The notes beneath the pieces were generated by a model. It did no database searches, had not been told where the DNA came from, and saw only the letters and a list, made by a program, of their open reading frames with translations. Positions 55-45,578 of a DNA stretch of 55,426 bases are shown here, piece after piece. Location of the stretch: positions 1-55,426 of IMG/VR virus record IMGVR_UViG_3300008261_000237; one strand, given 5' to 3'. Both the position numbers and the translations under genes were made by a program. Origin of the DNA: a virus. The first letter of the stretch is position 1, and each line of letters opens with the position of its first letter.

Positions 55-3000
55 ATGGCTAAGAGACAGATTAGAGATTATGTTTTTTCACCTGGAGTTG
101 CTGGGTCTGGAAATTTAAAAATCTTAGATAAGGTCAGAAAAAATCAGATTCTGATGCTTGTCAATGTAACAAGTAATAAAATACTTTATAATTTTGCGGA
201 TCCAGTAAATCCAATTATTGTAGAATTTACTCCTGGCAATAGTGCAGAGTTTCCATATGCATCATCAATCTCTAATGGTGTAACAACTATACACTTTGAA
301 TTCGATACATCAGATCAGCAAGCAACTGATTCTATAACTATTTTTATTGAAGATGAAGAAGTAAGATTCAGACCATATAATTTTGGAACTGATGCGGTAG
401 AAAGGATGAGAGTGGCAACACCTCAGTCCATGATTGATGCTGACTTTGAATATGGAATTCAACCAACAAAGTGGCAGACAATTGACCACTTAAGAGGTTA
501 CCCAAGTACATTTGAAATTCCAGGTTCTGATATTTCAATATCCAATGTACAAACAGATGCAAGCCAAAACACTGGAGGTGTTGGTGCATCAATTATAACC
601 GTACAAACAGTAGAACCACATGGGTTTGGTGCTGGACAACCATTTAGAATTTTTGGTCTGTTAGAAACTGTTTCTGGTTCATCTAGGGCAGAAGGTTCAT
701 TTTTAGTAGAAACAGTCCCAAATGCAAATGTGTTTACATATTTTGCCAAGGGAAAAGTGGGAACAAGTGATCCAACTGAAAGTCTATTTGCCCCATATTC
801 TCAATTAAGAAGAGGTGGATTTTACACTGGAGCAGCAATAGGATCACCATCATATTCTCTACTATCAAATGGTGTTACTGGTTCGTTTACTTCAAGATTT
901 ATAACACGTTCTGGTTCAAATAGAATTGCATATACTGGAGTAAATAATGCACTTTTAGGTTCTCCTTTAACGGCAAGTGGTATTCCCTCAGGAACACAAG
1001 TAACTGGTATTACGACTAATACTGCAACAACTACATTGCTAGAGGATGTTGTTGCTCCATCAAATACTTTAGTAGTTACTAGTGTTTCAGGTGTTCAAGT
1101 TGGTTCTGCTGTAAGTGATGGAACTGGACATTCGACATTTGTAACTAACATTGACGGAAATACTATCACACTTTCCAGTCCATACTTAGTAAATGCTTCT
1201 GGTGGTTCAAATAATGTTGGAATATTATCCGCAGTTCCAGAAAACTTTAATACTGGTGGTGGTGGAACTTTTGATATAGATAGAACTCAAGGAAGATACT
1301 TAGTAAATTTAAATTCTGCTGGTGCTTTATATAAGAACAATCAAAGATTAATTATTCCAGGGTCAAGTTTAGGTGGAAATTCTGATAATGATTTAGTCAT
1401 TCATGTTAGAGGAGTGGATGCTGGTGCATCAGGGATTGCAACATTCACGACTTCAAAGAGTGTTACTGCTTTGGGTGATGCTGCAATATCTCAATCCCAG
1501 AAAAAATGGGGTAATTCTTCTTTACTGCTAAACCCAACTGCAGGATCTACTGCGGATTCTTTGGTTGTTGATTCAAATATTGATTTTGAAATTCAAACTT
1601 CTGATTTTGCATTTGAAACTTGGGTTTATAGAAATAGAGTAGCAACACAAGAAGTTTTATTTGATATGAGAACAGCAGAACCTTCTGTTGCTCCAATGCT
1701 TAGAATCACCTCTGCCGATGTATTATCTTATTATGTAAATGGTTCAGAAAGGATTGTTGGAGTAACATCTATTACTGCAGGTTCTTGGACACATGTTGCA
1801 GTAACAAGAAATGGAACATCAACAAGATTATATGTAAATGGAATTCAAGAAGGAAGTGTATATACGGATACAAATTCATATCCACAATCTCAAGTAAAAA
1901 TTGGTAATAACTTTAGTGGTTCTCAAGGATTCTTTGGATTTCTTGATGCTACTAGACTTTCGATTGGAAATTCTAGATATAGTGGGTCATCATTTGAAGT
2001 TGCATCTCTGGATATTTTTGGACTTGGTTCTCCATTCTATCCAGATGCTTATACAAAATTACTCTTAAATTATAATGGTGTCACCAATTCTACTGTCATT
2101 GCAGATGATGCATATGGGGTTGCAGTACCAAGTTATAGAACTTATTCTGGTATAACAGGAATAACAACTGGTTTTGGTGTTGGTGCAGAATTTGATGTTT
2201 ATAGATCTGGTTCTGGAGCATATACTGTAACTTTTAGAACAGGACAAACATCAACTGGATCGGCATATGCTTTGTCCGATACCATTACAATTGATGGTTC
2301 AGTTTTAGGTGGTTCTTCTGGAACAAATAATTTAGTTATTACAGCAACTTCTGTAGATGGTAGTGGTGCAATTTCTGCATTTACTGTTTCTGGAACTTCT
2401 ATTTCTGGAAATGTTTCATACACCAATGTTGCTCCAATTCTTACTGGTTCTGGTGGAACATTTAATATTACAAAATCTGCTGGTGGGTATATTGTAACTC
2501 CTGATGCTCAAGGAACTGGATATTTCCCAGGTTACCAATTAAAGATTTTGGGAAATTTATTAGGAGGAACAACTCCATCGAATGATTTATTCATTACAGT
2601 TTCTACTACTACACCAGATAGTTCAACAAGAGGAAGAATACAAACAGTAGTTGCTACTGGAACACCAAATACTGGAGCAATATTAAACTTCTTCCCATCA
2701 GTTGCTGTTTCGGAATTGACATCTTCTCCAATTTCAGATGGTGCTTCAATTTCTCATTCATCTTTAGCAAGATTCCAGGTTTCATTTGCAAATGCACATG
2801 GTCTCGTTCCAGGAGACACCATTACATCAACAGTAACTTCTGCGGGAACAGGACATTCATTAGCATCAGGTCCATTCGTTATTGACAGTACTCCAACTAG
2901 CAATTCAATTGTTTTTAATGCAAGAACACCTGGTTCTGTTTCGGCATCTGGAATTGCTGGAACTGTATACCCAAGACCAGACTGCTTCTATGTTCATAGA

Positions 3001-5100
3001 CCTTTTGATGGTGGAGTTCAATTGGGTGTCGGTGGACCTGCCCATGGAGCACATGCAGTTCGTCAATCCAAAAAGTATATTAGATATCAATCAGGTAAAG
3101 GTGTAATGTACACCACTGGTGCTTTGTTCGCACCAAGTTATGATATTAGAAGTGTTTCTGCAGCATCAACCTCAATTGGAAGTGTCGTTACAATAACAAC
3201 TGATGACACTGAACACGGTGTTCAGGTAGGAGCAGAGGTAGCAATTAGTAATATTGAAACTCCAGGATATAATGGTCATTATACTGTAAATAGCGTAATT
3301 AATGAGAACACATTTACAGTACTAGCAGTAAATTCATTGGCATCAACAAGTCCAGTTCTGGGAAGACCACCCACTTTATCACTTTATAGATGGAAAGGTG
3401 CAACAGTACGTGCTGGTGCATTTGATGACCAAAATGGTATTTTCTGGCAATATGATGGAATTAATTTGGCAGTTGGACTAAGATCGGCAACATTCCAACT
3501 TGCTGGAACAATTTCTGCTACTCCAGATTCCAATTTGGTGACTGGAGCAAATACAAGATTTACTGATCAATTAGTTGTAGGAGATAGAATTGTTATTAGG
3601 GGAATGACTCATGTTGTAACAACAATTATTGGAAATAATGCGATTACGGTATCACCAGACTTTAGAGGGGTAAGTTCAATTTCAGGTGCAAAAGCAACAT
3701 TAGTTCAAGATAGAATTATTCCACAAACTCAATGGAATATCGATAAAGCTGATGGAACTGGTGCTAGTGGTTATGAAATTGAAATCAATAAAATGCAAAT
3801 GATTGGTTTCCAATATACTTGGTATGGTGCTGGATTTATCGATTGGATGTTACGTGGTCCAGATGGAAATTACTTATTCGTTCATAGATTAAAGAATAAT
3901 AACTCAAATACAGAAGCATATATGAGATCTGGTAACCTACCAGTTAGATATGAAGTCATCAATGAAGGTCCCAAATCTAAACTTGCTTCAACTATATCTC
4001 AATCACAAACAACAGTTTCCCTAGTAGATGCTTCTCTATATCCATCCTCAGGAACAATTTATGTTGATAATGAATTAATAAATTATACAGGAAAATCTGG
4101 AAATACTTTAACTGGTATCACAAGAGCAGCATCATTCGGAAATTATTCTTCTGGTTCATTTAGAACATATACTGCAGGAGCAGCAGCATCCCACTCGGAA
4201 GGTTCTGGTGCTATTTTATTAAGTAATACTGCAACTCCAGTAATCAGTCACTGGGGTTCTGCATTCTTAACCGATGGTTTATTTGATAGTGATAGGGGAT
4301 ATATTTTTAACTATCCATATGTTGGTGGAACTATATCAACAACAAAGACGACTGCATTCATGATTCGACTTTCTCCTAGTGTTTCAAATGCGATTACTGG
4401 AGACTTAGGACAGAGAGAATTAATAAACCGAGCACAATTGCTATTGAAGTCACTCGAATTCACTCCAACAGGTGGTTCAACATCACAAGCAGTCATCATT
4501 GAAGGTATTTTGAATCCTTCCAACTATCCATCAAATCCATCTTTAGTTCAGTGGTTTACTCTTACATCACAGGGTGCTGGTGGACAACCATCATTTGCAC
4601 AAATTGCCAACGCATCTGCAATTACTTGGGAAGGTGGAGCACAAACAATAAATGCAGCAACAGCAGAAGTTCAAAACTATTTTACACAGTATCAAGTCTT
4701 TAATGCAGTAGATGTAGCAAATGTAAGAATTGGATTCTTTGTTAGTGGAACAGGTGTTCCTGGTGGTACAAGAGTTATTAATATTTTTAGACGTGATGCG
4801 AATAGAAATTATGTGCAGTTTTCTAACTCTGTAAATTCTGGTCCATCAGGAACTACTTACACATTTACAGCAAACACCGTATCTGCTGCACCTGGAGAAA
4901 CTGTATTCTCTTTTGTTGCAACAGCAACAGATAAGTCAACCATTGACCTCTCCGAACTTAAAGAGCTTAACAACACACCAATTGGTGGAAGAGGCACATT
5001 CCCGAATGGCCCCGATGTTCTTGCAATTAACGTCTACTTAACAAATGGCAGTAACATTACGAGCAATCTAGTTCTGCGTTGGTCAGAAGCACAAGCATAA
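55..5100 (+). CDS. Giant virion structural protein with LamG-like domain
   Basis: A 1681-residue protein, rich in Ser, Thr and Gly and with no membrane segment, typical of an extended beta-structured virion or fibre-associated protein. The ATG follows a clear AAGGAGAT ribosome site (40-47). Residues about 472-648 look like a laminin-G/concanavalin-like sandwich (FAFETWVYRN, GSWTHVAVTRNG, RLYVNGIQEGS), a fold often used for glycan binding. Residues about 1000-1300 share a module with the 424-residue protein at 17156 (RQSKKYIRYQSGKG, WYGAG, LPVRYEV). A further small beta module follows (TTVSLVDASLYPSSGTIYVD). It lies just before neck gene 13, where cyanophages carry large structural genes. No T4 counterpart is recognised. 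A host-surface or head/neck-fibre role is inference. Confidence 0.7.
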   Translation: MAKRQIRDYVFSPGVAGSGNLKILDKVRKNQILMLVNVTSNKILYNFADPVNPIIVEFTPGNSAEFPYASSISNGVTTIHFEFDTSDQQATDSITIFIEDEEVRFRPYNFGTDAVERMRVATPQSMIDADFEYGIQPTKWQTIDHLRGYPSTFEIPGSDISISNVQTDASQNTGGVGASIITVQTVEPHGFGAGQPFRIFGLLETVSGSSRAEGSFLVETVPNANVFTYFAKGKVGTSDPTESLFAPYSQLRRGGFYTGAAIGSPSYSLLSNGVTGSFTSRFITRSGSNRIAYTGVNNALLGSPLTASGIPSGTQVTGITTNTATTTLLEDVVAPSNTLVVTSVSGVQVGSAVSDGTGHSTFVTNIDGNTITLSSPYLVNASGGSNNVGILSAVPENFNTGGGGTFDIDRTQGRYLVNLNSAGALYKNNQRLIIPGSSLGGNSDNDLVIHVRGVDAGASGIATFTTSKSVTALGDAAISQSQKKWGNSSLLLNPTAGSTADSLVVDSNIDFEIQTSDFAFETWVYRNRVATQEVLFDMRTAEPSVAPMLRITSADVLSYYVNGSERIVGVTSITAGSWTHVAVTRNGTSTRLYVNGIQEGSVYTDTNSYPQSQVKIGNNFSGSQGFFGFLDATRLSIGNSRYSGSSFEVASLDIFGLGSPFYPDAYTKLLLNYNGVTNSTVIADDAYGVAVPSYRTYSGITGITTGFGVGAEFDVYRSGSGAYTVTFRTGQTSTGSAYALSDTITIDGSVLGGSSGTNNLVITATSVDGSGAISAFTVSGTSISGNVSYTNVAPILTGSGGTFNITKSAGGYIVTPDAQGTGYFPGYQLKILGNLLGGTTPSNDLFITVSTTTPDSSTRGRIQTVVATGTPNTGAILNFFPSVAVSELTSSPISDGASISHSSLARFQVSFANAHGLVPGDTITSTVTSAGTGHSLASGPFVIDSTPTSNSIVFNARTPGSVSASGIAGTVYPRPDCFYVHRPFDGGVQLGVGGPAHGAHAVRQSKKYIRYQSGKGVMYTTGALFAPSYDIRSVSAASTSIGSVVTITTDDTEHGVQVGAEVAISNIETPGYNGHYTVNSVINENTFTVLAVNSLASTSPVLGRPPTLSLYRWKGATVRAGAFDDQNGIFWQYDGINLAVGLRSATFQLAGTISATPDSNLVTGANTRFTDQLVVGDRIVIRGMTHVVTTIIGNNAITVSPDFRGVSSISGAKATLVQDRIIPQTQWNIDKADGTGASGYEIEINKMQMIGFQYTWYGAGFIDWMLRGPDGNYLFVHRLKNNNSNTEAYMRSGNLPVRYEVINEGPKSKLASTISQSQTTVSLVDASLYPSSGTIYVDNELINYTGKSGNTLTGITRAASFGNYSSGSFRTYTAGAAASHSEGSGAILLSNTATPVISHWGSAFLTDGLFDSDRGYIFNYPYVGGTISTTKTTAFMIRLSPSVSNAITGDLGQRELINRAQLLLKSLEFTPTGGSTSQAVIIEGILNPSNYPSNPSLVQWFTLTSQGAGGQPSFAQIANASAITWEGGAQTINAATAEVQNYFTQYQVFNAVDVANVRIGFFVSGTGVPGGTRVINIFRRDANRNYVQFSNSVNSGPSGTTYTFTANTVSAAPGETVFSFVATATDKSTIDLSELKELNNTPIGGRGTFPNGPDVLAINVYLTNGSNITSNLVLRWSEAQA

Positions 5101-8893: not shown

Positions 8894-9943
8894 ATGAAAC
8901 CTTTTTCTCAATTTATTTCAGAAGCAACTGACCCAAAGGGACCTATCAAAAAATATATGTCCCCAGAAGAAATTGTGAAAAAGCACAAAATCACAATGGA
9001 TGCTTTAAATTCTCAGTTGGAGATGGGAATTAAAGTAGAGAGTGAACATACTGGAAGTAAGAAGATGGCAAGAATGATTGCATTGCAGCATCTTGAAGAA
9101 TTACCAGATTATTATTCTAGATTAAAAAAAGCAGAGAAGATAAAAGAAGAGACAGCATCTGGAGATGAAACCCTTGGGGATTGGTTTAGAAAATCAAGTG
9201 CAACTGACCCCAAAACAGGAAGAAAAGTTCCAGGTTGGAGACAACTTGGAGGTAAATATGCAGGTGCTCCTTGTGCCCGTCAACCAGGACAAACCTCTAC
9301 TCCAAAATGTGGAAGTTCTAAGATGGCAGCAAACTTATCAGATGACGAAGAGGATAAAGCATTTAGAAGAAAAAATAGAAAAGACCCAAATCAACCAGAA
9401 AAGACAGGTGCAGCAAAACCAACTAATGTTGCAACGGAAGAGACTATTATTGAGAAAAAGGATGCCTGCTACAGTAAGGTAAAATCTCGTTACTCTGTAT
9501 GGCCCAGTGCTTATGCATCTGGGGCATTAGTTAAATGTCGTAAAGTTGGAGCAGCAAATTGGGGAAATAAAACCAAAAAAGAAAGTTATGATTACTCAAA
9601 CTGGAGAGATGAATTTAAACCAGTTGAGTACATATTTACTGATATCATTAAACCATCTCCACTAAGAGGTTCTTCAGTAGAAGAAAATTATTCTTTTATA
9701 CAATCTCGTGGCACAACTTATGGTATAATGTTAAACTGGAGGGGCAAGACTTTGGGGGTTCAAATATTCTTCCCACAATTTACAAGACCATCAAAAGAGC
9801 AAGTTTCATTTGAAATTAATAAAATATATCCAGGAGCAATAGTTCTATCTTGGAAACCAACCCCAAAAGACCCCACAAAACCATTATTATTCACGGGAGA
9901 ACAGAATGGATCCGTCCAAAATAACCCTAGAAAACCTAAATAA
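8894..9943 (+). CDS. Capsid-targeted internal protein between gp16 and gp17
   Basis: A 349-residue basic protein. It begins MKPFSQFISEA, matching the T4 capsid-targeting peptide (MKTYQEFIAEA in internal protein III) with a gp21-type I-x-E cleavage site, so it is probably placed in the prohead and trimmed. Residues about 10-75 hold a helical domain (MSPEEIVKKHKITMDALNSQ). Residues about 95-150 hold GDWFRKSSATDPKTGRKVPG with several Cys (DUF5872-like from memory). About 192-226 is the cyanophage-type motif YSVWPSAYASGALVKCRKVG. A second YSNWRDEF motif follows at about 233, then a C-terminal WRGKTLG...YPGAIV domain resembling the protein at 16839. Placement between the terminase genes is notable. 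Precise function unknown. Confidence 0.7.
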   Translation: MKPFSQFISEATDPKGPIKKYMSPEEIVKKHKITMDALNSQLEMGIKVESEHTGSKKMARMIALQHLEELPDYYSRLKKAEKIKEETASGDETLGDWFRKSSATDPKTGRKVPGWRQLGGKYAGAPCARQPGQTSTPKCGSSKMAANLSDDEEDKAFRRKNRKDPNQPEKTGAAKPTNVATEETIIEKKDACYSKVKSRYSVWPSAYASGALVKCRKVGAANWGNKTKKESYDYSNWRDEFKPVEYIFTDIIKPSPLRGSSVEENYSFIQSRGTTYGIMLNWRGKTLGVQIFFPQFTRPSKEQVSFEINKIYPGAIVLSWKPTPKDPTKPLLFTGEQNGSVQNNPRKPK

Positions 9944-36158: not shown

Positions 36159-37399
36159 TGGAAAAAGTCGAAACTACTATTCTCAGGAATCTTCTCTTCA
36201 ATAATGATTATTGCAGAAAAGTTCTTCCTTTTATTAAAAATGAATACTTTGAAAACCTGCACGAGAAAGTAGTTTTTGAGGAGATTTGTAAGTTTATTGT
36301 TGCTTACGAAAAACTTGCAACTAAAGAAGTTGTCCTCATTGAAACTGAAAAAAGAACCGATATTACTGAGGACACATATAAAACCATTTGCGATTATGTA
36401 TCCAAGTTAGACAATAATGATGTTGACTATAAATGGTTGGTAGACACTACTGAGAGGTGGTGTAGAGACCGTGCTATATACCTTGCACTGATGGAATCCA
36501 TTAAGATTGCAGATGGTCAAGATGATAAGAAAAACAGAGATGCAATTCCAAGTATTCTTTCAGATGCTCTAGCAGTTTCGTTTGACAATAACATTGGACA
36601 CGATTACTTCAAGGACTTTGAACGAAGATATGAGTTCTACCATCAACGTGAGGAAAAGATTCCTTTCGATTTGGAATTCTTCAACAAAGTTACAAAAGGT
36701 GGACTTCCTAATAAAACTCTCAATATTGCTCTTGCAGGCACTGGTGTGGGTAAGTCTCTCTTTATGTGTCACGTTGCTGCTTCTGTTTTACTTCAAGGTA
36801 AAAATGTACTTTATATTACTTTGGAGATGGCAGAAGAGAGGATTGCGGAACGTATTGACTCAAATCTTTTGAACGTTAATATTCAGGATATCGAATCTCT
36901 TCCTAAGATGATGTTTGAATCTAAGGTGAATAAAATCAGTAAGAAGAGTCAAGGTACTTTGATTATTAAAGAGTATCCAACTGCGTCTGCACATGCAGGG
37001 CACTTTAGGGCACTTCTTAATGAACTATCTCTTAAGAAGTCATTTAAACCAGACATTATCTTTATTGATTATCTGAATATTTGTGCATCTTCAAGGCATA
37101 AAGCAAATAGTTCCATTAATTCATATACTTATATTAAAGCAATTGCCGAAGAACTTCGTGGATTGGCAGTTGAAACCAATGTACCGATTGTCTCTGCCAC
37201 TCAAACTACTCGTTCTGGTTACGGAAATTCTGATGTTGAGCTTACTGATACTTCTGAAAGTTTTGGGTTGCCTGCTACTGCTGATCTTATGTTTGCTCTT
37301 GAGCAGAGTGCTCAAAAAGATATACTTGACTCTGGACAAGAAGAAGAGTATAGTAATGATGAAGAAAAAACAAGTAAATTTTCTGGATTTAAATTCTAA
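36158..37399 (+). CDS. gp41: Replicative helicase gp41 (DnaB type)
   Basis: A 413-residue hexameric helicase (T4 475). Walker A AGTGVGKSLF (residues about 192-200), the TLEMAEERIAERID block, Walker B IIFIDYLNIC (about 300) and the ATQTTRSGYGN sensor region are present. It works with primase gp61. Starts on the last base of uvsX (ATGG) and overlaps mazG by one base. Confidence 0.95.
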   Translation: MEKVETTILRNLLFNNDYCRKVLPFIKNEYFENLHEKVVFEEICKFIVAYEKLATKEVVLIETEKRTDITEDTYKTICDYVSKLDNNDVDYKWLVDTTERWCRDRAIYLALMESIKIADGQDDKKNRDAIPSILSDALAVSFDNNIGHDYFKDFERRYEFYHQREEKIPFDLEFFNKVTKGGLPNKTLNIALAGTGVGKSLFMCHVAASVLLQGKNVLYITLEMAEERIAERIDSNLLNVNIQDIESLPKMMFESKVNKISKKSQGTLIIKEYPTASAHAGHFRALLNELSLKKSFKPDIIFIDYLNICASSRHKANSSINSYTYIKAIAEELRGLAVETNVPIVSATQTTRSGYGNSDVELTDTSESFGLPATADLMFALEQSAQKDILDSGQEEEYSNDEEKTSKFSGFKF

Positions 37400-37806
37400 T
37401 GAGTAAAGTTGATTTTAACAAGTATACCGAATTTGTTGATGCAGTAACTTCTGATGCTTCTAAAGACTTTCTTGCTCTTTCTGACCGTATGGTGGAATTG
37501 GATGAGAAAGGTGCTAATATTGAACGTCTTTTGACTGCTGGTGTCGGTATCAATGCTGAAGGTGGTGAGTTCCTTGAGATTATTAAAAAAATGGTGTTTC
37601 AGGGGAAACCATATAATGAAGATAATCGTGAGCATCTGATTATCGAACTTGGTGACATTATGTGGTACGTTGCTCAAGCATGTATGGCACTTGAAGTTTC
37701 TTTTGATGATGTAGTTGCTCGTAATGTCAAAAAACTAGAAAAACGTTATCCTGGTGGGGCATTTGATGTTTACTATTCAGAAAACCGTGAAGAGGGAGAC
37801 CTATGA
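37399..37806 (+). CDS. mazG: MazG-like nucleotide pyrophosphohydrolase
   Basis: A 135-residue all-alpha NTP pyrophosphatase. The metal-binding motif is visible as EGGEFLEI (residues about 54-61) and ELGDIMWYVAQA (about 83-94). Cyanophage MazG was first thought to lower ppGpp; later work pointed to dGTP and dCTP, so the role is dNTP-pool or stress related. It sits in the replication operon after gp41, a common cyanophage position. Confidence 0.9.
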   Translation: MSKVDFNKYTEFVDAVTSDASKDFLALSDRMVELDEKGANIERLLTAGVGINAEGGEFLEIIKKMVFQGKPYNEDNREHLIIELGDIMWYVAQACMALEVSFDDVVARNVKKLEKRYPGGAFDVYYSENREEGDL

Positions 37807-37982
37807 GTAAAGTAAAAGTAGAAATGGATGTACGTTCTGCTGCTGCAGTTCGTCAAATTTTATTTGATGCACAACGAGGGTATACAACTGATGTAAATAC
37901 CGTTCCCCCTCGTATTTTTGATATTCGTGAAGTGATTGCTGACCTTGATGATGCGATTACTCAAGTAGTGGAAAGAGAGTAA
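37803..37982 (+). CDS. Small 59-residue protein after mazG
   Basis: The ATG at 37803 overlaps the mazG stop (ATGA). The protein is MSKVKVEMDVRSAAAVRQIL followed by FDAQRGYTTDVNTVPPRIFD and an acidic helical end. The tight overlap and the full-length open frame before the terminator support a real gene. No family recognised. Confidence 0.65.
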   Translation: MSKVKVEMDVRSAAAVRQILFDAQRGYTTDVNTVPPRIFDIREVIADLDDAITQVVERE

Positions 37983-37990
37983 TGATTTAA

Positions 37991-38026
37991 ATCCTCATTT
38001 CTAAATAAAAGAAATGAGGATTTTTT
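37991..38026 (+). terminator. Terminator hairpin with late promoter in loop and ribosome site in 3' arm
   Basis: Perfect 11-bp stem ATCCTCATTTC / GAAATGAGGAT, loop TAAATAAAA, six T. It ends the replication operon. The late octamer TCTAAATA (38000-38007) and the GAGG ribosome site (38016-38019) of the next gene lie inside it. Confidence 0.85.
38000..38007 (+). promoter_or_regulatory. Late promoter octamer TCTAAATA inside the hairpin
   Basis: Octamer spanning the stem end and loop, 20 nt before the ATG at 38028. A transcript would begin near 38013, inside the 3' arm, so the hairpin could not form on it. Confidence 0.55.
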
Positions 38027-38027
38027 A

Positions 38028-38960
38028 ATGGCAACTGGTAATAGGTCTGCACAAGAAACTAATATTTTGAGAGAAGTTAATGCATTTATAACTCAATCTG
38101 GTGGTGGTTCAATAATACTAAAAGGTAGAAATGGATTTGAAATTAGAGATGTAGTTGCTCTTGCTGAAGACCCACTTGGAGATAAATCTGCTGCAGACTT
38201 AATAGTATCTACTTCCTCTGGCACGAACTATAAAATTTCATGCAAACAGCATAACCCAATTAATTTTGCTGGTGCTGGATTGAAAAGTTTTGTTGATGAT
38301 ATTCAAATGAAACTGTGGATGAATAAAGTTTTGAGAAAGGTTGCAGAAAAATTAAATTTATACGTAAAACCATCCAGAGACAAAGCAATGGACAGGATTG
38401 GTAGTTATTTAATTGACGACATTCAAAGAAATTCAATAAATGCTCCTCTTGATAGAGTTACGCAAGATAAAATTAAAGAAGAATATGATAAGATTCTTTC
38501 AATGGTGATTCCTGATATTTACATTAAGATACCAGACAGTATGAGATTGGAGATATTTACTGCGACTAATGTTGGGGGTCCAATTAATTATTACATCTTG
38601 AATGGCAATGCAAATTCATTTTCTACTGATATACAAACAAAAACTATAACCATAAATGATTGTGATATTTTGAGCACAGGTAAAATGGTTAAATCTGGGG
38701 AAACATTATATCTTGTAATTAGAAAAAGGAGAGCGGACCAATTGTTTTCTTTGAAAGACAATAGGGGAAATTTTTTAAGAACTAAAGATGGATTTTTGAG
38801 AATATTTTCCAAATCATTATCAAAATCTGATATTGGTGCAAGAGTTCAAATAAGAGAGAAAGAACAACTTCCAAAAAAGTTAAAAGATGCAATAATACAA
38901 GGCACTGCAATAAAAACAACCAATGTTACGGCAAACTCAATTATTTTGGAGATCGATTGA
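38028..38960 (+). CDS. Putative PD-(D/E)XK nuclease-like protein
   Basis: A 310-residue protein of unknown family. Residues about 55-76, AADLIVSTSSGTNYKISCKQ, followed by FAGAGLKSF, resemble the core of restriction-type nucleases (acidic residue, two strands, an x-x-K motif, then a Gly-rich turn). Only the Asp and Lys can be proposed; no classic acidic residue stands two before the Lys. A basic beta-rich C-terminal half follows (LVIRKRRADQLFSLKDNRGN). It opens the late block of capsid-targeted proteins but lacks a targeting peptide itself. Confidence 0.5.
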   Translation: MATGNRSAQETNILREVNAFITQSGGGSIILKGRNGFEIRDVVALAEDPLGDKSAADLIVSTSSGTNYKISCKQHNPINFAGAGLKSFVDDIQMKLWMNKVLRKVAEKLNLYVKPSRDKAMDRIGSYLIDDIQRNSINAPLDRVTQDKIKEEYDKILSMVIPDIYIKIPDSMRLEIFTATNVGGPINYYILNGNANSFSTDIQTKTITINDCDILSTGKMVKSGETLYLVIRKRRADQLFSLKDNRGNFLRTKDGFLRIFSKSLSKSDIGARVQIREKEQLPKKLKDAIIQGTAIKTTNVTANSIILEID

Positions 38961-38964
38961 CAAT

Positions 38965-38972
38965 TATAAATA
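38965..38972 (+). promoter_or_regulatory. Late promoter octamer TATAAATA before the 38991 gene
   Basis: Exact late consensus 18 nt before the ATG. Confidence 0.7.
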
Positions 38973-38990: not shown

Positions 38991-40145
38991 ATGAAGAGTT
39001 TTGCTAATTTTTTCAGAGAAGCAGTAGAGACTTTGGCATCTACTGAAGCAAAGAATCGTGGACTTGTCGGTAACGGTCATGGAGACTGGTACGACAAGCA
39101 AGGGAATTTTGTGGCAAAAACTGTTAAAGGTAAGTTAAAGTTTTATGGTCAGGGTGATAGTGCATCTGAAGATGGAATACCAGGAGAGGAAATAAAACAA
39201 TCACAGCAGTCAAATGCCTCTCCAGAACAAGGAGAACAACCCCAAGAAGCAAAGGGTGTAGTAGTGGTTGTTGGTAGATTTAACCCACCATCAAAAAATC
39301 ATCAGCAATTATTAAAAGCAGGATTTTCTCAAGCAAAACGTAGAGGATTTGAATATAGAATTTATCCAAGTAGAATTCAAGATTCTGCTTCCAATCCTTT
39401 AAATCCCACATTAAAGATTTCATATATGAAATCTATGTTTCCTGAATATGGTGATTATATTATCGATAGTGAAGATGCAAAAACTATATTTGATATTCTT
39501 GAATCTCTTTATGGTGATGGATATGGTGATGTCACATTAGTTGTAGGTCAAGAAAGACTTGGTGAATTTCAAAGTTTAGTGCATAAAGCAGAAGGGCAAG
39601 GATATGAATTTGCCAATTTGGAAGTAATTACCGCAGGAGTCAAAGATCCAGATAGTGAAGTGGAATCACCTGGTTCTTCTGCTTTAATGAAAGCTGCTGT
39701 TGCTATGAATGATTTTTATAAATTTGAAGCTGGGTTACCTACAACAATGGATCCAGGAGAGAAAAAGGAACTTTTTAATACTCTTAAAAAGTCTATGAAT
39801 GTTAGTGAATCTACTGAGGCATGGAGGATAGAACCAGAGTTTGATTATGATGGATTGAGGTGGAATTATAAAAATAATAATATTTTTGGTATCGGAACTT
39901 TTGTTGAAAATGTAAATAGTGGATTGGTTGGAAAAATAATTAGAAGAGGTGCAAACTATTTAATTTGTGTAACAGAAGAAGATCTTATGTTTAAGAGTTG
40001 GTTGAAGGATGTTAGGGAAGTGCATGAAATAGGAACAGATGAGTATAGAGAATATGTTCAATCTATTACACCAGGAGAAAAAGTTAAAAACTTTTTAGTT
40101 GGTAGAAATAAAAAGTCCTCAGTTTCTACTAAAAACTATAAATAA
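38991..40145 (+). CDS. Capsid-targeted protein with nucleotidyltransferase-like domain
   Basis: A 384-residue protein. It begins MKSFANFFREA, a T4-like capsid-targeting peptide (site less canonical, F-R-E). Residues about 30-50 carry the cyanophage virion motif GDWYDKQGNFVAKTVKGKLK. Residues about 90-260 look like a cytidylyltransferase/NMN-adenylyltransferase fold: VVVVGRFNPPSKNHQQLLKA (an HxGH-type loop degenerated to SKNH), LVVGQERL and SSALMKAA in place of the usual ISSTxxR. The C-terminal part (NYKNNNIFGIGTFVENVNSG) is a small beta domain. It may be an enzyme packaged in the head; activity is uncertain because the loop is altered. Confidence 0.7.
   Translation: MKSFANFFREAVETLASTEAKNRGLVGNGHGDWYDKQGNFVAKTVKGKLKFYGQGDSASEDGIPGEEIKQSQQSNASPEQGEQPQEAKGVVVVVGRFNPPSKNHQQLLKAGFSQAKRRGFEYRIYPSRIQDSASNPLNPTLKISYMKSMFPEYGDYIIDSEDAKTIFDILESLYGDGYGDVTLVVGQERLGEFQSLVHKAEGQGYEFANLEVITAGVKDPDSEVESPGSSALMKAAVAMNDFYKFEAGLPTTMDPGEKKELFNTLKKSMNVSESTEAWRIEPEFDYDGLRWNYKNNNIFGIGTFVENVNSGLVGKIIRRGANYLICVTEEDLMFKSWLKDVREVHEIGTDEYREYVQSITPGEKVKNFLVGRNKKSSVSTKNYK
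40137..40144 (+). promoter_or_regulatory. Late promoter octamer TATAAATA before the 40173 gene
   Basis: Exact late consensus 28 nt before the ATG, overlapping the previous stop. Confidence 0.7.
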
Positions 40146-42055: not shown

Positions 42056-42207
42056 TTACTTGTTTAGTTGCTAATTGGGGAGTAACCATTGTTCTTGGTT
42101 TATTGTTGGCTGCTTCTGAATGGTTAGCAAAAACAAATAAATTCAAAGAAAATGGTTTACTCGATTTAATCACTAACTTTTTAAGAGTAATTTTAAAGAA
42201 GGGGTAA
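42052..42207 (+). CDS. Small membrane protein, holin-like
   Basis: A 51-residue protein with one strong membrane segment (WGVTIVLGLLLAASEWLA, residues about 9-26) and a basic C-terminal tail (FLRVILKKG). Size, one segment and charged tail are compatible with a small holin or membrane-targeted protein, but nothing proves it. Its stop lies in the 5' arm of the following terminator. Confidence 0.6.
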   Translation: MITCLVANWGVTIVLGLLLAASEWLAKTNKFKENGLLDLITNFLRVILKKG

Positions 42208-42227
42208 ATTGCAACCTTACCCCTTTT
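42199..42227 (+). terminator. Intrinsic terminator
   Basis: 9-bp stem AAGGGGTAA / TTACCCCTT with the loop ATTGCAACC and a short T run. A late octamer begins at its last T. Confidence 0.75.
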
Positions 42228-42234
42228 ATAAATA
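42227..42234 (+). promoter_or_regulatory. Late promoter octamer TATAAATA before the 42268 gene
   Basis: Exact late consensus 33 nt before the ATG, directly behind a terminator. Confidence 0.7.
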
Positions 42235-43821: not shown

Positions 43822-44823
43822 ATGAGTTTTATTGATTCTAAGTATATCGGGTTGGTGTCTTCCCGACTGTATAAGTTCGCTAAGAAAAAGGAAGGTCTTT
43901 ACAATTTTCGTTGTCCTTATTGTGGAGATAGTCAAAGGACAAAAAGTAAGGCAAGGGGATATATTTACAAATTAAAAAATGACCACAATTTTAAGTGTCA
44001 TAATTGTGGTGTGTCTAGAACCTTTACTAACTTCCTGAAAGACATGGATACGGTCCTGTATGACCAGTATGTGATGGAAAGGTATAAGAATGGTCTGACA
44101 GGAAAAGGAAGTCAAACAAAAACCCCAGAATTTAAGTTTGAAAAACCTGACTTTTCAAAAAAGTCTTTTGACCTGCCCACTATAGCAGAACTAAATAAAG
44201 AACACTTGGCAAGACAATATCTAGAGAACAGAAAAATTCCACAAGAATATTTTCGTGATTTGTATTTTTGTCAAAACTTCAAAGAGTGGACAAATACTCA
44301 GAAGTATACATTCGATAATTTAGACAACGACGAACCAAGAATCATCATTCCTCTTATTAATCACGGAAAAATCTTTGGGTTTCAAGGTCGAAGTCTGAAT
44401 AAGAATTCAAAAGTTAAGTATATTACAATTATCCTAGACGACAACCATCCAAAAATATATGGTTTAGATAAAGCAGACTACACAAAAACTGTTTATGTCG
44501 TTGAGGGTCCGATCGATAGTATGTTTTTAGATAATTCAATTGCTATGGTTGGAGCAGATATTGATTATATGTTCTTCCTTTCTAACTTTGAATCGGACTT
44601 TGTAATGGTTTATGATAATGAAAAAAGAAATAGGCAAATCGTTCAGAGGATGGAAAAGGTAATTGATATGAAATTTCCTATTGTGATTTGGCCTAATGAT
44701 TTGAAGGAAAAGGATATCAATGATATGGTTATTGAAGGTATGAATGTCAACAAAATTGTAAAAGAAAATACTTTTGTTGGATTAGAAGCAAAAGCAAAAC
44801 TTATAGGATGGAAAAGAGTTTAA
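43822..44823 (+). CDS. gp61: DNA primase gp61
   Basis: A 333-residue DnaG-type primase (T4 342). N-terminal zinc site CPYCGDSQRTKSKARG and CHNCGVSRTF (residues about 31-65), TOPRIM motifs VVEGPIDSMF (about 226) and VMVYDNEKRN (about 262). With helicase gp41 it forms the primosome. The stop overlaps the start of the oxygenase gene (TAATG). Confidence 0.95.
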   Translation: MSFIDSKYIGLVSSRLYKFAKKKEGLYNFRCPYCGDSQRTKSKARGYIYKLKNDHNFKCHNCGVSRTFTNFLKDMDTVLYDQYVMERYKNGLTGKGSQTKTPEFKFEKPDFSKKSFDLPTIAELNKEHLARQYLENRKIPQEYFRDLYFCQNFKEWTNTQKYTFDNLDNDEPRIIIPLINHGKIFGFQGRSLNKNSKVKYITIILDDNHPKIYGLDKADYTKTVYVVEGPIDSMFLDNSIAMVGADIDYMFFLSNFESDFVMVYDNEKRNRQIVQRMEKVIDMKFPIVIWPNDLKEKDINDMVIEGMNVNKIVKENTFVGLEAKAKLIGWKRV

Positions 44824-45509
44824 TGTTTGATATTACTGATTTAATTTATCGAGTTCCAAATTTTTTGACTGATGGTGAATGCCAATCTTTAATCGATGAG
44901 TATGAAGTTAGGTCTAATGAATATATGTTAGAGCATTGCCCAGATGCCAATACTGGGGAAGATACATATTCTTCTTTTAAAGTAGTAAATTTAAATAAAA
45001 ATACTTCGAATTTTGAGTTGGTTTTTAAAAAAACTGAGCAGGCAATAAATCAATATTTTGATTATTTGCAAAGTTTTAATGCATTTCATATGCCTCTTAT
45101 TCGTCAAGCAAGTATGCTTTATTCTCATTCATATAGACTTATGAAGTATGATATTGGATGCAAGATTCACCCTCATACTGATCATGACCCCTTTGTGTAT
45201 GGAAGCATTACTTTTAATCTTAATGATGAATATACAGGAGGAACGTTCTCCTTTTTTAATGGACAGCATGAAATTAAATTAGAAAAGGGGGAAATGATGA
45301 TATGGCCAGCAGATTATTTTTGGGTACATGAAGTAAAACCAATAGAAAGTGGCACAAGATATAGTACCAATGGATTTTTACAATCACTTCCCATTGAAGT
45401 CTGTAGACATGCTAGGAGGGAAGCATATGATTTTCTGGAAGAAGATTATTCCAGAGTTGTGTCTTTGGAAAGCACTATTGGTCCATATAATATTAAACAG
45501 ATTGATTAG
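44823..45509 (+). CDS. 2OG-Fe(II) oxygenase (prolyl 4-hydroxylase-like)
   Basis: A 228-residue protein from the ATG overlapping the gp61 stop; an in-frame ATG at 44808 is less likely. The iron site is HPHTDHD (HxD, residues about 116-122) with the distal His in WVHEVKP. The co-substrate Arg is likely in GTRYSTNGF. The jelly-roll strand GSITFNLNDEYTGGTFSFFN is typical. Such oxygenases are common in T4-like cyanophages. The substrate is unknown; DNA modification/repair and protein hydroxylation have both been suggested. Confidence 0.85.
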   Translation: MFDITDLIYRVPNFLTDGECQSLIDEYEVRSNEYMLEHCPDANTGEDTYSSFKVVNLNKNTSNFELVFKKTEQAINQYFDYLQSFNAFHMPLIRQASMLYSHSYRLMKYDIGCKIHPHTDHDPFVYGSITFNLNDEYTGGTFSFFNGQHEIKLEKGEMMIWPADYFWVHEVKPIESGTRYSTNGFLQSLPIEVCRHARREAYDFLEEDYSRVVSLESTIGPYNIKQID

Positions 45510-45535
45510 ACTTCATTGAAGAATCGTGGTACAAT
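45507..45535 (+). promoter_or_regulatory. Sigma70-like promoter before nrdA
   Basis: -35 TAGACT at 45507-45512, 17-nt spacer, -10 TACAAT at 45530-45535, overlapping the end of the oxygenase gene and 43 nt before nrdA. Moderate match. Confidence 0.5.
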
Positions 45536-45578
45536 TAAAAGACTACTGTAAAAAATTTAAACTTGTTTTTTAGGAAAT

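Follow-up and report, generated by a model that had tools for sequence, protein, structure and literature searches.

In phage T4, the late genes e, soc and 49 are left untranslated on early read-through RNA and are translated from late RNA (PMC3014915); they are not known to have a terminator function or to recur on exchangeable cargo. A similar arrangement is found in I-TevI, I-TevII, I-TevIII and segB of T4 and in mobE of Aeh1, where the Shine–Dalgarno (SD) sequence is hidden on upstream-initiated RNA, the late promoter is placed so that late RNA loses enough of the hairpin, and the product is a nuclease or nuclease-like protein encoded within an early or middle operon (PMC2988022). Intrinsic (rho-independent) terminators, for their part, combine a stable stem with a T run.

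Here we analysed a virus record of 55,426 bases (the window), whose central genes have matches in T4-like phages of Synechococcus and Prochlorococcus and are thus T4-like cyanophage genes. Between its mazG operon and a gene for a 310-aa protein lies a 35-base hairpin that is probably a fused late-gene switch, in which a terminator, sequestration of the SD and a late promoter would be combined. The same silencing of early RNA and translation of late RNA is predicted here as is described for T4 e, soc and 49, although the genes differ, the hairpin is terminator-like and the element recurs on exchangeable cargo. T4 e, which the first-pass annotation cited as a precedent, shares the logic, but I-TevI, segB and mobE are the nearer parallels. 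The window element departs from these in ending in a U-tract typical of intrinsic terminators, in having cargo without a GIY-YIG or HNH match, and in heading many unrelated families at shared sites. With intrinsic terminators it shares the stable stem and the T run; unlike theirs, its stem is poor in G-C pairs and takes up part of the U-tract, and it contains a promoter and, in the 3' arm, the SD of the next gene. Two of these traits, the joining to a terminator-like U-tract and the repeated occurrence on cargo that is exchangeable, appear to be new, and a literature search that covered few subscription papers returned no description of the element in cyanophages.

Anatomy of the element and its neighbourhood

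The features of the locus are as follows.

37399–37806, + strand: mazG-like pyrophosphohydrolase gene of the upstream operon (Pfam MazG, 6.5e-10; PHROG 229, 3e-58)
37803–37982, + strand: 59-aa ORF (phrog_24723), the nearest gene upstream of the hairpin, a conserved neighbour and the survey bait
37989–38002, + strand: hairpin 5' arm, AAATCCTCATTTCT (sequence, fold, covariation)
38000–38007, + strand: late-promoter octamer TCTAAATA, made up of three bases at the end of the 5' arm and five of the loop
38003–38009, + strand: hairpin loop AAATAAA, 7 nt
38010–38023, + strand: hairpin 3' arm, AGAAATGAGGATTT (sequence, covariation)
38013, + strand: predicted late transcription start (+1), within the 3' arm, from the octamer position
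38016–38020, + strand: SD GAGGA within the 3' arm (sequence; accessibility computed)
38021–38026, + strand: six-T tract, the terminator-like tail
38028–38960, + strand: 310-aa gene under putative hairpin control, PD-(D/E)XK-like by motif
38965–38972, + strand: separate late octamer TATAAATA serving the next gene
38991–40145, + strand: cytidyltransferase-like gene (phrog_395, 5e-78), the conserved downstream flank of the slot

The hairpin (37989–38023) comprises 14 perfect pairs, 37989–38002 with 38010–38023, rather than the 11 originally annotated; the six T hold, the first three of them being paired in the full stem. The annotated GAGG at 38016–38019, eight bases ahead of the ATG at 38028, is borne out by the sequence, and the octamer lies at 38000–38007 as annotated, but not wholly in the loop, as its first three bases, TCT, belong to the 5' arm. 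This is the longest perfect stem in the 55 kb of the window for loops of 3–12 nt (the runner-up has 10 bp), and the 44-nt element has a folding energy of −17.1 kcal/mol (z = −5.7), a value equalled by none of 200 shuffles. Its strength as a terminator is uncertain, because only 4 of the 14 pairs are G-C and half of the U-tract pairs in the stem. A generic terminator scan of the window did not return the hairpin, probably because the stem takes up part of the U-tract, and Rfam holds no family for the element.

To put this architecture in context, four genomes (about 660 kb) were scanned for a hairpin with a U-tract, an SD in the 3' arm and a following ATG. The scan gave four candidates, three with a late motif: the window element, one in Synechococcus phage DSL-LC02 that heads a 269-aa nuclease-like gene in the same slot, and one in Sf-FR1 that heads a 112-aa protein with a weak PDDEXK_15 match (E 0.0014, below the curated cut-off). 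The fourth, also in Sf-FR1, lacks a late motif and appears to lie inside coding sequence; S-SRM01 gave no candidate. The 12 Markov-shuffled control genomes together gave one, without a late motif.

T4 late promoters carry TATAAATA at −13 to −6 and the Aeh1 late consensus is CTAAATA (PMC1524935), which the window octamer matches; the late promoter motif of S-PM2 is NATAAATA (PMC2984593). With the octamer at −13 to −6, the late start is predicted at 38013, in agreement with the position first proposed. All four intergenic copies of TCTAAATA in the window stand 20–21 nt ahead of an ATG, and its TATAAATA sites are mostly intergenic and on the gene strand. Every aligned element has the octamer unchanged, though this set was chosen by patterns that contain it; the octamer also stands ahead of homologues that were detected by protein alone. 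Elsewhere in the window, at 42199–42234, the arrangement is seen unfused, with a late octamer TATAAATA immediately after a terminator-like hairpin, and in S-SRM01 (206928–206968; L226) a related hairpin with TCTAAATA in its loop heads a 53-aa gene just upstream of psbA.

RNA of the upstream uvsX–gp41–mazG operon, whose early expression in this phage we assume from T4-like genomes, would form the 14-bp hairpin followed by U residues and mostly end there, and on RNA that reads through, folding predicts that the 3' arm would hold the SD of the 310-aa gene, leaving it untranslated. Late in infection, a gp55-type late sigma factor would read the octamer across arm and loop, and late RNA would begin, judging from the octamer position, at about 38013 with a 15-nt leader. 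Since such RNA lacks the 5' arm, it would escape termination at the hairpin and leave the SD exposed. The switch probably serves to silence a late, probably nuclease-like product whose gene sits in an early operon.

Comparison with related contigs also revealed differences around this operon. The gp41-like helicase (413 aa) has about 130 bp fewer at window position 37300 than in the near-identical contig L005, and lacks there the 44–45 aa found in L003 and L004, which is either a real deletion or an assembly error. L004 carries, at 1512–3316, two additional genes between helicase and mazG that are not in the window and look glycosyltransferase-like by eye. Further downstream, about 740 bp of the window (44820–45558), including most of a 233-aa gene, is missing at that place in the relatives L005 and L002.

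Covariation and predicted ribosome-site accessibility

The first-pass annotation had proposed conservation of paired changes in related phages as a check, and stem changes that abolish pairing as grounds for refutation. We aligned 36 distinct elements that share one geometry and come from several gene families, excluding one with the core but without the outer stem (L098). Paired cells amount to 91.9%, against 81.3% in shuffled alignments and 71% at best when the arms are slid, and 56 cells are changed on both sides against 15.7 in shuffles, none of 500 of which reaches 56. The pattern scans constrained the core or the 3' side and left the outer 5' arm free, so the outer pairs provide a fair test of covariation. 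Pairing is thus retained through two-sided changes, with a strong compensatory signal, the opposite of the refuting outcome. Together with the predicted pairing of the SD and the predicted placement of the promoter, this conservation places the element in silico among the T4-type hairpins that sequester ribosome-binding sites.

Searching by protein alone gave 22 homologue loci, including contigs already among L001–L004, and about half of the 22 carry clear versions of the hairpin. Hairpins with altered arms precede the gene in L001–L004, L252–L256, L258 and L262; in L268 the octamer of a variant hairpin stands immediately ahead of the 5' arm. L257 combines a hairpin with a late motif, but its 3' arm contains no SD. 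In L259, L260, L261, L263–L265 and L269 the late octamer is present and the U-tailed hairpin absent, and L266 and L267 have neither upstream of the homologue.

On read-through RNA, folding predictions give the window SD an unpaired probability of 0.001 and an opening cost of 12.2 kcal/mol; for late RNA from 38013 the predicted values are 0.50 and 1.4 kcal/mol. Late RNA also has the lower predicted cost in each of the 11 relatives examined, in which the unpaired probability on read-through RNA is at most 0.005; predicted accessibility on late RNA is low in L254 (0.05) and L053 (0.13). In L252–L255 the spacing from SD to ATG, at about 15 nt, exceeds the optimum. The SD is therefore predicted to be hidden on read-through RNA and much freer on late RNA.

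The encoded protein and recurrence of the element

The 310-aa protein has no sequence match in Pfam, PHROG or the PDB, and no recognisable endonuclease domain (GIY-YIG, HNH or others). Across 17 aligned family members, E10, D57 and S71-x-K73 are invariant, and a fold model built from these 17 sequences (mean pLDDT 84.7; an earlier model from four sequences, at pLDDT 40, was unusable) has a strand order compatible with PD-(D/E)XK. The model has no significant fold match in the PDB, and its three matches in BFVD at E ≤ 1e-3 are all unnamed or uncharacterised phage proteins. On motif and strand order, we infer that the protein may be PD-(D/E)XK-like.

Pattern scans of viral contigs recovered at least 82 loci with a following ORF of at least 140 aa, and among the matches listed these cargo ORFs fall into 14 BLAST clusters, a few of which are probably due to chance. 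Copies of the fused element are spread over aquatic T4-like phages, where they head many genes unlinked by BLAST, mostly ones with a nuclease-like D...[S/E]xK motif, and a covariance model finds one strong copy per record, where present. The cargo is usually flanked by a conserved upstream gene and, on the other side, by either a DUF6267 gene or a cytidyltransferase-like gene whose product begins MKxFxxFxxEA. Among the matches listed, one cargo family is found at two sites and several families at one site, which points to exchange. Proteins with MKxFxxFxxEA or similar starts are encoded in the window at 8894, 16839, 38991 and 51726; such starts resemble the sequence that targets T4 internal proteins to the capsid, and these proteins may be packaged in the head.

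In clusters 1, 2, 4, 5, 7, 8 and 13, most members contain a D...[S/E]xK motif, found in 20 of 219 control proteins; this comparison is only supportive, because the expression was shaped after hairpin-linked proteins had been seen and the clusters were first found through the hairpin. Some cargo families may be remotely related, as the cargoes of L062 and L009 both match phrog_12709; in a profile comparison of two families, only the D...SxK stretch aligned, at a probability of 1.5%.

A scan with an ATAAATA octamer added at least 12 fused hairpins before ORFs of at least 100 aa, several of which precede gp5-type baseplate hub/tail lysozyme genes. The same architecture there rules out an element exclusive to nucleases and argues for a general late-gene device that, in the slot studied, accompanies nuclease-like cargo disproportionately often. 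A terminator resident at the site is also not favoured, as S-SRM01, DSL-LC03 and S-SSM7 have the slot without the hairpin and a different site does carry the hairpin.

Alternative readings and meaning of the element

The architecture could also be an intrinsic terminator of the mazG operon, into which promoter and SD were packed by genome compactness, with silencing as an unselected by-product. A terminator alone would account for the covariation, and in cyanophage S-PM2d neighbouring genes lie a median of 6 bp apart (PMC5931967). A survey baited with the 59-aa upstream gene, and so not conditioned on the hairpin, covered the best 80 of at least 579 loci, 70 of them with a readable cargo ORF. 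At these 70 loci the fused element precedes 18 of the 25 cargoes that have the motif and 4 of the 45 that lack it (Fisher 8.6e-8, a count in which L347 was scored three-in-one by hand and the loci are related rather than independent events), so that fusion follows nuclease-like cargo. Furthermore, at 25 surveyed loci with the cargo family 'MDxKELRGLxEAY', another late cargo in the same slot, a hairpin or T-run comes first and TATAAATA after it, never fused. With the same upstream gene in place, fusion is thus not forced by lack of space, and we regard compactness as an unlikely explanation.

The inverted repeat might instead act as DNA, either as an operator bound by the encoded protein, in the manner of I-TevI autorepression, or as a site at which the cassette is recognised or exchanged, with RNA pairing incidental. 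I-TevI does bind an operator overlapping its own late promoter (PMC2988022), and the cargo here is nuclease-like and exchangeable. Yet the arms vary freely with pairing kept, even inside one protein family, which argues against a sequence-specific site, as such a site would keep its sequence, and the same element heads unrelated families and tail lysozyme genes; a DNA site is accordingly very improbable. It is scarcely credible that the hairpin serves the upstream operon, by stabilising its mRNA at the 3' end or as a place of processing, and that the late start of the 310-aa gene lies elsewhere: a stable 3' hairpin exists, but the conserved late octamer at a fixed distance from the ATG would be left unexplained.

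A broader and tentative possibility, on balance doubtful, is that it serves as the portable control head of an exchangeable late-cargo slot, keeping each unrelated nuclease-like gene silent until late. Such a slot would be bounded upstream by the 59-aa gene, or lie at a second site, and downstream by the cytidyltransferase or DUF6267 gene, and its cargo would perhaps be weapons against competing phages or homing elements.

The fused switch implies that hiding of late-gene ribosome sites in the style of T4 reaches beyond a few T4 genes and recurs in aquatic T4-like phages, and that a compact, covarying element with a terminator-like tail would allow a late gene to be inserted in an early operon without early production. 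It also draws attention to many uncharacterised late genes, nuclease-like and placed in exchangeable slots, opens the role of early silencing to tests with simple reporters, and offers an element that can be used for annotating late genes in the genomes of uncultured phages.
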